Shown here: piece after piece, positions 60,841 through 63,437 of the stretch
Numbering within the stretch: the first letter of the stretch is position 1
How the letters are laid out: every line of letters begins with the position of its first letter
Made by a program: the position numbers and the translations under genes
The notes under the pieces: model-generated
Database searches by the model: none
Seen by the model: only the letters and a program-made list of their open reading frames with translations
What the model was told of the DNA's origin: nothing
Assembly (NCBI RefSeq): GCF_018336815.1
Contig: NZ_CP050497.1
Span: forward strand, 248,001 to 312,000
Reading direction: 5' to 3'
DNA from: Treponema vincentii
Lineage (GTDB): Bacteria; Spirochaetota; Spirochaetia; Treponematales; Treponemataceae
DNA: 64,000 nucleotides

Positions 60841-62658
60841 ATGAATAAAAATAGAAGAATAAATCGGCTGTTGAGCCGGTTAGCAGTAGGATTGATGCTT
60901 GCTGCAATGGCCTTGTTTACCGGTTGTCCGAATAAGATAACGGTTAAACCGGAAACATTTGCAGTAACGTTTAGTGCCGGGGAACACGGTACGCTTAAAG
61001 CAAAGGCGGACGGCGTAACGGAAACGAATAAAAGCCCGATAAGCGTCGAAAAAGACAAAACAGTTGTGTTTACTGCGGTGCCTGAAAAGGGTTATGAAGT
61101 AGAAAAGTGGACGGTCAACGGTACTGCTGTGGCAAATAATGTAAGTACAACGTATAGCCATAAAGTAACGGCTGCCGTAACGGTAAAGGTAAGCTTTAAG
61201 GCTTTGCCGCCTTCTGCCGTCGCTGTAACGGGTGTAACGCTGGATAAGCCTACGGTAAGTCTTGTAGCAGGAACTAGTACAACACTGACTGCAACGGTTT
61301 TGCCTGCAAATGCAACAAACAAAACAGTAGCGTGGAGTTCCGATAAGCCTGCGATAGCGAGCGTTGATAAAAACGGTACAGTAACGGCACATAAAGCCGG
61401 TGAAGCAGTTATCATCGTAACAACCGAAGACGGCGGTAAAACAGCGAGCTGTAAGGTAAACGTAACAGCCAAGCCTCCGACAACATACAAGATAACCTTC
61501 AGCGTAGAAGGTGGGAACGGTACGCTTAAAGCAAAGGCGGAAGGCATAGCGGAAACAACGATCAGTCCCATAAACGTTGAGCACGACAAAACCGTAACCT
61601 TTACGGCAACGGCTGATTCGGGCTACAGGGTAAAGGGCTGGACGCGTGATGGAGAAGCCGTAAACGGCACAAACGATTCCTATTCGTTTACCGTTACAAA
61701 GGGCGTCGAGGTTAAGGTGAGCTTTGAAAGCAACAGCACACCACCTACACCGCCTGCCGACGATTTTGTAACGATAACCCCGCCTGAAGCAGGTATTATC
61801 GGAGCGGATCCGACATATTCTTTGCCGGGAACGGATGAGTATTGGAAAGGGGTATTCCGCGAAGGGCGGAAGGTAAAATTGAGCCCTTATAAGCTGGGCA
61901 AGACGGAAGTGCCGTATAAGCTGTGGAAAGAAGTATACGACTGGGCGACACAGCCTGCGAATGGATACAAGTTTGCTCATGCAGGAGTAAAAGGTAAAGA
62001 CGGAAGCGGGAGCGAAGAAGAGCCGGTAACGACGGTAAGTTGGCGGGACTGCGTTGTATGGTGCAATGCGTATACCCAGAAAGAAAAAGGTGCAGACGAA
62101 TGCGTTTACCGAAAAAGCGATGATCATACTACGGTATTAAAAGACGCGACTGATACAGCTGCTTGCGATGCCGCCTATGCCGATATGAGTAAAAAAGGTT
62201 TTAGACTTCCTACAGAAGCCGAATGGGAATATGCAGCTCGGTGGCAAAACGATAGCACAAATGCTGAACAATACGGAGAAGTATGGCTTATCAAACTAAA
62301 CAGTGCAAGCGGAGCGAAAGGCAACTGGGAAGATGCGGAGAAAACGGGAGAAGTTGCATGGTATAGCGGTAATGCAGATAGTAAAGCGCATCCAGTTGGA
62401 ACAAAGAAAGCGAATGCACTTGGCTTACACGATATGAGCGGGAACGTCTGGGAATGGTGTTTTGACCGGTATGGTAATATCGAAGCTGAAGATGTTATGG
62501 ACCCGCAAGGTGCACCTGCTGCTTCCGGTTCTCCCCGCGTCCTTCGCGGTGGTGGTTGGGACTATTACGCGGTGAGCTGTGTCGTCGGTGGACGGAGCTT
62601 CATCAGCCCCGACTGCAGCTACGTCTTTCTTGGCTTTCGTGTGGCTTGTCGCCCCTAG
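60841..62658 (+). CDS. DGR target: lipoprotein with C-type-lectin/SUMF1 domain and variable C-terminus (TvpA-like)
   Basis: 605 residues. AGGAGG leads to the ATG at 60841. Lipoprotein signal ending FTGC. Then an InlB-type beta-repeat (FAVTFSAGEHGTLKAKADGV), a Big_2 immunoglobulin-like domain (VTGVTLDKPTVSLVAGTSTT), a second InlB-type repeat (ITFSVEGGNGTLKAKAEGIA), a Pro-rich linker (NSTPPTPPADD), and a SUMF1/CLec domain (FRLPTEAEWEYAARW, DMSGNVWEWCFDRY). The last 44 residues are the variable repeat. The domain should display the variable patch on the cell surface to bind diverse ligands. A fixed relative stands at 51.6 kb. Confidence 0.92.
   Translation: MNKNRRINRLLSRLAVGLMLAAMALFTGCPNKITVKPETFAVTFSAGEHGTLKAKADGVTETNKSPISVEKDKTVVFTAVPEKGYEVEKWTVNGTAVANNVSTTYSHKVTAAVTVKVSFKALPPSAVAVTGVTLDKPTVSLVAGTSTTLTATVLPANATNKTVAWSSDKPAIASVDKNGTVTAHKAGEAVIIVTTEDGGKTASCKVNVTAKPPTTYKITFSVEGGNGTLKAKAEGIAETTISPINVEHDKTVTFTATADSGYRVKGWTRDGEAVNGTNDSYSFTVTKGVEVKVSFESNSTPPTPPADDFVTITPPEAGIIGADPTYSLPGTDEYWKGVFREGRKVKLSPYKLGKTEVPYKLWKEVYDWATQPANGYKFAHAGVKGKDGSGSEEEPVTTVSWRDCVVWCNAYTQKEKGADECVYRKSDDHTTVLKDATDTAACDAAYADMSKKGFRLPTEAEWEYAARWQNDSTNAEQYGEVWLIKLNSASGAKGNWEDAEKTGEVAWYSGNADSKAHPVGTKKANALGLHDMSGNVWEWCFDRYGNIEAEDVMDPQGAPAASGSPRVLRGGGWDYYAVSCVVGGRSFISPDCSYVFLGFRVACRP
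62524..62658 (+). repeat. DGR variable repeat (VR)
   Basis: Matches the template at 63303-63437 over 135 bp with 26 differences, all at template adenines; no non-adenine site differs. The last 31 bases (62628-62658, TCTTGGCTTTCGTGTGGCTT...CTAG) are identical in both, the place expected for the initiation-of-mutagenic-homology end. Seventeen codons are changed and one is silent: mostly template Asn (AAC/AAT) codons turned into Asp, Tyr, Ser, Phe, Ile, Cys or Pro. Confidence 0.96.
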
Positions 62659-62663
62659 GGTTC

Positions 62664-62796
62664 ACACATTTTGCCTGTGAGGTTGAGCAACAACGGGCGT
62701 TGCGTAAGCCGCCCGTTGCGGCGAAACCGAAGCGGCAAAATGTGTAGGGATGGAATGTAAAACAAAAAACTACACATTTTGTGTATATAGAATGTG
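62664..62796. promoter_or_regulatory. Competing hairpins after the variable repeat
   Basis: Starting 6 bp after the target's stop: arm A ACACATTTTGCC (62664-62675) pairs perfectly with arm B GGCAAAATGTGT (62734-62745), enclosing an inner stem CAACGGGCG/CGCCCGTTG (62691-62718). Arm C ACACATTTTG (62771-62780) can pair with arm B instead, and with arm D AATGTGT (62790-62796) by itself. So A:B and B:C are mutually exclusive. DGRs of the BPP-1 type need a hairpin just after the variable repeat; this one is larger. Confidence 0.75.
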
Positions 62797-62886
62797 TAAG
62801 AATCTACCGTGCCGGTACGTATATCGTAGGGGTACGGAGAGTAAAAAATAATTTATTATAATCCGCATAATGCGAGGAGGAGAAAA

Positions 62887-63207
62887 ATGACGAAATCATT
62901 TAGTTATGATGCAAATTTGAAGGGTGTAGTTGACATCAGTCCTGGAGGACTGGAAACAACATATCGTTTTACGGTCTATGATGCGCAAAAAAAGCAGAGC
63001 GGAAAAATATCGATAACGTGCAATAATTTTGAGATGTTGAATCAAAATGAACTTGACAACCTGAATGCCGCTATCGAAAACTGTGATGGCAGCTTTGACG
63101 ACTGGTGGACAAAATACAAAGACCTTGGAGATATGGATCGGTTAGATATGGCTACTCGTCTTATCCCTTGTGCAATTGCAGAATTTAAAACTATGCAGCA
63201 AAAGTAG
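62887..63207 (+). CDS. DGR-associated hypothetical protein, 106 residues
   Basis: Strong ribosome-binding site AGGAGG. Sequence: MTKSFSYDANLKGVVDISPG, a beta-rich first half (YRFTVYDAQKKQSGKISITC) and a helical second half (NELDNLNAAIENCDGSFDDW, MATRLIPCAIAEFKTM). It does not look like the all-helical Avd accessory protein. It lies between the variable and template repeats, a common place for DGR helper genes, but the role is unknown. Confidence 0.7.
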   Translation: MTKSFSYDANLKGVVDISPGGLETTYRFTVYDAQKKQSGKISITCNNFEMLNQNELDNLNAAIENCDGSFDDWWTKYKDLGDMDRLDMATRLIPCAIAEFKTMQQK

Positions 63208-63302
63208 GATGGTAAGGCATTATCCTAAATACAGATCGTAGTAATGACACTATGAATGCGAAATAGTCGGAGTGTTAAACGGTAGGGACTTAACAGAGGT
63301 GC
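63208..63302 (+). other. Leader of the template RNA
   Basis: 95 bp between the 106-residue gene and the template. Non-coding. A possible 5' part of the template transcript; no strong promoter stands out, so it may be transcribed from the target's promoter. Confidence 0.4.
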
Positions 63303-63437
63303 TCCGGTTCTAACCGCGTCAAACGCGGAGGTAGTTGGAACAATAACGCGAAGAACTGTGTCGTCGGTAAACGGAACAACAACAACCCCGACAACAGCAA
63401 CGACAATCTTGGCTTTCGTGTGGCTTGTCGCCCCTAG
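63303..63437 (+). ncRNA. DGR template repeat (TR)
   Basis: Non-coding copy of the target's C-terminus, with 38 adenines, many in AAC/AAT/AAA codons if read in the target's frame (it would give NRVKRGGSWNNNAKNCVVGK...). It carries the same TAG stop. Beyond 63437 the match ends with AGAGC versus GGGTT in the target, the difference between the IMH* of template and IMH of target. A short hairpin TCACAC/GTGTGA (63441-63457) follows. The RNA is copied by the reverse transcriptase with adenines misread. Confidence 0.96.

Follow-up and report, generated by a model that had tools for sequence, protein, structure and literature searches.

Comparison with described retroelements

The closest described relatives of the locus reported here are the TvpA-type diversity-generating retroelements (DGRs) of Treponema denticola. 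Their genes are given in the order target, template repeat (TR), HRDC gene and reverse transcriptase (RT), and in strain ATCC 35404 the HRDC and RT genes overlap by 47 bp (PMC4891356). HRDC is named among the known DGR accessories (PMC10053308). The DGR of phage BPP-1 requires a hairpin/cruciform immediately downstream of its variable repeat (VR) (PMC3240598), and repeat-mediated phase variation is known in Treponema pallidum and others (PMC11868660). Here, we analysed 64,000 nucleotides (the window, G000:C1:248001-312000) of the 2.71-Mb, single-contig genome of Treponema vincentii (G000). As judged from its sequence, the element near the end of the window is a TvpA-type, HRDC-bearing DGR, apparently intact, outside T. 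denticola.

As in T. denticola, the order is target, TR, HRDC and RT with an overlap between the last two genes, the target carries an FGE-type lectin domain, the RT and its counterpart in the ATCC 35405-like genome G052 (where the TR has the coordinates given for ATCC 35405) share 73% identity, and the VR 3' block and TR spacer are conserved. The two systems differ in their TR sequence (about 82% identical) and in the number of targets, with one fitting VR here compared to the 2-7 targets described for T. denticola, where several remote targets are usual, though not defining. A 106-amino acid open reading frame (ORF) also separates VR and TR here (offset 779 compared to 334), an octamer array lies at the promoter, and the VR/TR pair is free of non-adenine (non-A) differences. 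With BPP-1 the locus shares A-directed TR-to-VR change, a 3' anchor and an inverted repeat after the VR (PMC3240598), but it has an HRDC protein instead of Avd and a chromosomal lipoprotein target. The GTAA of its hairpin loop departs from the GRNA stated for phage DGRs, and homing is putative here. Whilst the DGR itself is of the known TvpA type, the promoter array is the part that we have not seen described before.

Adenine-only differences between the variable and template repeats

The core of the element consists of the following features.

60841-62658, + strand: DGR target gene, predicted lipoprotein, 605 aa from an ATG, with AGGAGG at 60828-60833
62524-62658, + strand: variable repeat (VR1), final 30 bases (62629-62658) identical to the TR
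63303-63437, + strand: template repeat (TR1), placed by alignment with the VR
63618-64094, + strand (the window ends at 64000): HRDC accessory gene, 158 aa (PF00570, E = 2.5e-21)
64057-65037 in window-equivalent numbering (L004:4058-5038), past the window end, + strand: RT, 326 aa (PF00078, RVT_1, E = 1.6e-18)

Re-alignment of VR and TR at an offset of 779 gave 135 positions, 109 of them identical. All 26 mismatches fell on template adenines (14 A>T, 9 A>G and 3 A>C, TR to VR), 12 of the 38 TR adenines were unchanged and none of the 97 non-A positions had changed, in exact agreement with the counts of the sequence-only reading. Random placement of the 26 mismatches over the 135 positions would put all of them on adenines with a hypergeometric P of 5.9e-19. 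When the 135 bases of the VR were compared at other offsets, from 50 to the window end (~1,340), no more than 52 identities were obtained vs 109. An unguided repeat scan of eight loci on both strands (100-bp repeats, at least 7 mismatches, at most 1 at non-A) recovered the same pair (26 mismatches, 0 non-A). Other pairs were detected only in L136, L138 and L139, which are DGR loci of relatives, and no adenine-specific repeat pairs were found in L093, L095, L005 and L098.

The VR lies in frame at the 3' end of the coding sequence and ends on the target stop codon (62656-62658). Beyond the 30 identical 3' bases, eight of the next ten match (62659-62668 vs 63438-63447), the others being one A>G and one C>T, and the first difference at a non-A base comes just past the repeats as originally delimited. 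These two changes are of the kind found between the initiation of mutagenic homing site (IMH) and its template counterpart (IMH*). The 5' end of TR1 is without 4 nt present in the VR and sister TRs. Nineteen sense codons of the VR are recodable, and the product of accessible residues, including a TAG stop codon, is 5e20.

The target contains InlB-like and Big_2 repeats and a C-terminal FGE-sulfatase/C-type-lectin domain (61867-62646; PF03781, E = 7.7e-36); its ORF-tool alternative start is a GTG at 60823. Among solved proteins, T. denticola variable protein 1 is the best relative (2y3c, E = 2.4e-34, residues 302-611). The target had been described as a surface lipoprotein with a TvpA-like lectin fold. 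Kinship with TvpA and the lectin-type fold are supported at the sequence level by these two matches, and its status as a surface lipoprotein is a prediction from the N-terminus, where LFTGC reads by eye like a lipobox.

The RT starts 619 bp beyond the TR, with the HRDC gene between them. HRDC and RT overlap by 38 bp and both reading frames are uninterrupted. In DGR-type RTs, SQ replaces SP in motif 4. The RT here has GNLTSQ at residue 183 and YMDD at residue 214, so that the SQ-type enzyme anticipated within a few kb downstream of the window's repeats is present. It also matched a PHROG reverse transcriptase (E = 5.8e-90). Identity as a group II intron, retron or Drt antiviral RT was rejected, since the curated cut-offs were missed (group II 100/300 bits, retron St85 63.7/235, Drt3a 57.2/200). 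In the RT loci obtained by a scan of genome contigs, an HRDC match lay beside the RT in 10/10 cross-phylum cases (L037-L046, weakest E = 5e-15), the hosts being Bacteroidales and relatives, Saprospiraceae, Candidatus Brocadia, Akkermansiaceae and Kiritimatiellae. Other RT hits of this genome were discarded as parts of the DGR: those at 1769729 and 776664 are remnants and that at G000:331233 is instead a Drt3b-like/phrog_12132 piece.

Variation among alleles and sister repeats

For the DGR, the question 'DIVERSIFYING' was addressed via metagenomic alleles, sister VRs and decay across the genus. A protein search for target relatives gave at least 3,707 passing among 7,999 candidates scored. From the best 120 of the 3,707, 30 were compared with the window VR and five (P0001-P0005) with each other. 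In any pairing of these five public metagenomic alleles (547 aa), 0-5 of the 503 residues beyond the VR differ. Inside the VR, each of the ten pairs has 12-15 changed codons among the 19 with a template A and 0 among the other 25, with A codons set by the window's TR rather than by the alleles' own TR. Variants differing only at template adenines were what the sequence-only reading had foreseen, and its claim of adenine-directed diversification is supported by this allelic pattern and by the RT downstream.

Three sister VRs displayed the same bias. The VR of the ortholog in G001 (G001_b) has 21/21 mismatches at A relative to the window TR over 122 positions, and its VR residues are those of T. 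medium protein P0006. Two VRs of G058, compared with the TR common to G058 and G037, have 17/17 and 20/20 mismatches at A. Taken together, the adenine-only VR/TR pair, the RT and HRDC genes and the allele pattern point to a TvpA-type, HRDC-bearing DGR that is probably active in its lineage.

Proposed mechanism and alternative explanations

It is very probable that the RT copies TR RNA with errors at adenines and that the resulting cDNA replaces the end of the predicted surface-lipoprotein gene. By analogy with BPP-1 and T. denticola, the TR transcript would end near 63593, and the RT together with the HRDC protein, in Avd's place, would make the A-mutagenised cDNA. Homing would be anchored by the identical 30-base 3' segment and aided by the inverted repeat after the VR, and the TR itself would be spared because its 3' end differs (IMH*). 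As a result, the side chains of up to 19 residues on the lectin-type ligand face would change. Since the DGR parts (an adenine-only template copy and an RT gene) are present, the bacterium likely rewrites the target's predicted binding face. Three flanking structures bear on this scheme.

62663-62745, + strand: inverted-repeat block after the VR, fold -50.2 kcal/mol
63441-63457, + strand: small hairpin directly after the TR, TCACAC / GTGTGA, arms kept in T. denticola-like G052 and G037
63525-63593, + strand: stem with T run, from folding; likely 3' end of the TR RNA

The post-VR block has outer arms CACACATTTTGCC / GGCAAAATGTGT and inner arms AACGGGCG (62692-62699) / CGCCCGTT (62710-62717), and is common to 5/5 aligned Treponema VR flanks. 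Among these five sequences the inner stem is invariant and no covariation was found in the hairpin. These inverted repeats are likely a homing-site hairpin/cruciform. After the TR, 79 nt are 90% identical to G052. The stem at 63525-63593 was not reported by a terminator scan whose loop limit is 8 bases, and Rfam gave just a sub-threshold TD-2 match after the TR (27.7 vs 48.7 bits) at the locus.

A different reading, which we regard as improbable, is that the locus is a frozen relic: a real DGR with past VR diversification that is no longer active in this strain. Decay of this kind is evident nearby. In T. vincentii-like G005 an insertion that matches TD-2 breaks the RT, G001 and G004 retain only RT tail pieces of this type, and a second cassette in this genome (described below) is RT-less. 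Of the 7 genomes of the genus, G000 alone was found to have an uninterrupted RT of this type, so its loss is common there; the uninterrupted RT of G001 is of another type, ~36-42% identical. Further observations weigh against the preferred explanation. Several sister VRs differ at non-A positions from the TRs compared with them; for example, the seven targets of T. denticola-like G052 carry 3-8 non-A differences from their TR, and VR2 and TR2 of the second cassette differ at 16 non-A positions. In addition, VR1 is the only VR of this genome that fits TR1, and the strain is represented by one genome, where RT-dependent change cannot be seen. A relic is, however, hard to square with uninterrupted RT and HRDC frames in which the key motifs are present, with the absence of non-A differences in 97 positions, unlike in the sister cassettes, and with the circulation of near-identical alleles carrying fully different VRs.

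Recombination or gene conversion among paralogous VRs could also generate VR differences without reverse transcription. Identical VRs do recur on different backbones among metagenomic proteins (e.g. P0013, P0014, P0019 and P0026), therefore VR exchange or shared descent happens too. As the origin of the differences seen here it is extremely improbable, as it leaves unexplained both the position of all 26 on adenines of a non-coding neighbour copy and the lack of a second VR in the genome fitting TR1. The DGR preferred here, of HRDC type and apparently intact, has a clean template and a single fitting target, and would be a convenient system for studying Avd-free retrohoming; the other copies of this DGR type found in the genus are broken.

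An octamer array beside the predicted promoter of the target

Upstream of the target gene lie two further features.

60336-60364, + strand: predicted promoter, -35 TTGACA (60336-60341) and weak -10 AACACT (60359-60364)
60366-60475, + strand: perfect octamer array (ACTCAGCA) x 13.8, putative contingency microsatellite (Tandem Repeats Finder (TRF), 100% matches, score 220)

The array starts 24 bp after TTGACA. The triplet (ACTCAGCA)3 occurs at nine places in four of seven genus genomes, three of them in this genome. Seven of the nine lie before VR-bearing targets. Of the remaining two, one is upstream of a lipoprotein-like gene of 740 aa, and one, in G005, stands before a 150-aa ORF that has a long lipoprotein-like gene behind it. 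TTGACA accompanies 9/9 ACTCAGCA arrays of the genus, the copy number ranging from 5.4 to 18.8. Ten VR-bearing target genes were available from G000, G001, G004 and G005, comprising nine VRs among 14 TR-like places, for which every first-look candidate was scored, plus VR2. Of the other five places, three are templates, one is a damaged template and one is a template slot holding an A-depleted copy. Seven of the ten target genes have the array, one has a remnant of about two units and two have a deletion that starts just past TTGACA and takes in the whole array, -10 region included.

Across all loci examined, TTGACA was found 28-33 bp upstream of 16/17 distinct perfect 7-8-bp arrays (at least 5 units), in loci chosen for DGR or lipoprotein similarity rather than at random and with homologous arrays that are not independent. 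The units of the anchored arrays are ACTCAGCA, TCACAGCT, GTCGGTCA, CTCACAG and AGCAACA. In G037, G058 and G110, TCACAGCT and GTCGGTCA units stand before an operon in which a gene of 231-236 aa is joined by one or two lectin-type targets. A TTGACA-anchored TCACAGCT repeat was present in 5/8 genomes of the T. denticola genus. None was found in ATCC 35405-like G052, where the search covered some 230-400 bp upstream of remote targets and reached farther arrays by the TCACAGCT pattern alone. A difference of whole units was seen between two copies in this genome, 96% identical over 1,076 bp including part of the array, whose arrays measure 110 and 86 bp (3 units).

The array lies outside the target frame, therefore any effect would be exerted at the level of transcription or the leader. 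As in known repeat-mediated phase variation, a perfect short tandem array sits beside a surface-protein promoter and differs in copy number by whole units. In contrast to it, the 7-8-bp units follow the -10 directly and precede a DGR target, and the role here is putative. This arrangement suggests, but leaves unproven, that phase-variable expression is added to DGR diversification. No paper on the combination of a DGR target with a promoter array was found in a limited literature search, and the main text of PMC4891356 makes no mention of promoter, tandem or microsatellite.

The probability that the array is neutral and leaves expression unaffected is only just short of even. The repeat follows the -10 and does not separate -35 and -10. 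Among the 16 anchored arrays, nine have one common unit and are thus not independent. Against neutrality, different units occur at 28-33 bp from TTGACA in 16/17 arrays, each of which stands ahead of an operon with a DGR target or of a lipoprotein-like gene, and two target genes have lost both the array and the -10 region. A change in the amount of protein made, through slippage of the (ACTCAGCA)n array next to the promoter, is possible, with the balance leaning somewhat against it. Two points count against such a role: by eye the window's -10 is weaker than that of several relatives, which have CATAAT, and the arrays are in part homologues of each other. A sigma-70 promoter scan of window-equivalent 60499-65299, a range that excludes the array promoter, lends no support because it gave 6 sites vs 8.0 expected from shuffles.

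We tentatively propose, as a model that may well prove wrong, dual-contingency loci in oral treponemes. The DGR would rewrite the ligand face, and slippage of a promoter-anchored 7-8-bp microsatellite would independently switch or tune expression. The promoter module would serve a wider lipoprotein repertoire, with units differing by species, and palindromic TD-1/TD-2 insertions would lock alleles by destroying the homing site. If the array does act as a switch, one gene would combine programmed sequence change with phase variation, and both layers could be read together from plaque metagenomes.

Three more perfect heptamer arrays were observed in this genome (L048:5588-5678, L048:17999-18048 and L049:13585-13643), 29-33 bp after TTGACA and before large lipoprotein-like genes (797, 664 and 830 aa). 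In G001, an RT of another type (371-aa ORF; L095:639-5716, G001:2459638-2464715) lies downstream of a 655-aa Lcl_C-like lipoprotein gene, itself behind a TTGACA-anchored (CTCACAG)16 array; no A/non-A TR/VR pair was found at L095. In a scan of viral contigs for the array, one contig matched.

A second cassette, decayed copies and putative palindromic insertions

The second cassette of this genome (G000:1948346-1951142, minus strand; L047) comprises a gene for a 704-aa paralog, then TR2 and HRDC scraps, with no RT match there. TR2 (G000:1948346-1948490) is 88% identical to TR1, with differences at non-A positions too, and the HRDC gene is broken by TD-2/TD-1 matches. The cassette looks dead because of the 16 non-A differences between VR2 and TR2. 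With the broken HRDC gene and the lack of an RT match, these leave its reading as a working RT-less DGR unsupported.

Rfam TD-2/TD-1 gave 40 matches in 10 decayed or sister DGR loci (examples are L093:5284-5384, L047:7875-9034, L099:5718-5941 and L134:5257-5353). One falls inside the interrupted G005 RT, and others fall within HRDC scraps, on VR stop codons or downstream of TR2. From their placement, the TD-2/TD-1 'RNAs' resemble mobile palindromic insertions. In two species, four VR-like ends (L099 G005_c, L135 G005_e, L096 G001_a and L133 G001_b) stop at the same base, after GTGGCT, and run into one common palindrome, ATGTCCAAGAATTGACGTCC... This removes the end of the homing site and may freeze these four alleles.

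A-depleted VR-like copies occupy two template slots, one in G037 (L148, ~950-1090) and one in G005 (L099 G005_c, G005:1538574-1538450). In the latter, 18/21 differences from the G005 TR are at A. Both look like templates overwritten by mutagenic homing.

Neighbouring genes and other observations

One further ORF lies within the element.

62887-63207, + strand: 106-aa ORF between VR and TR, probably a bystander insertion

This ORF had no Pfam, NCBIfam or PHROG match. Its occurrence in just 4/195 genomes of the family, this genome included, ruled it out as a conserved accessory. Near the G058 DGR there is a fragment of this ORF.

Downstream of the RT comes a gene of the PDDEXK_2 nuclease/transposase family (L004:5115-5900, window-equivalent 65114-65899). 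Genes with the same start motif were observed beside the RT of L095 (L095:3552-4346) and, broken, near the second cassette (L047:7090-7461), and this gene family is possibly linked to the spread of the cassettes. Nineteen kilobases downstream, an RT-like piece (L005:8048-10153, G000:330048-332153) scored below the cut-off for Drt3b and matched phrog_12132. It adjoins an ORF reading like a protein kinase, and the two are perhaps a defence locus. Elsewhere in the window, a selenocysteine tRNA gene was detected at 14260-14347 on the minus strand (Rfam RF01852, 65.5 bits).

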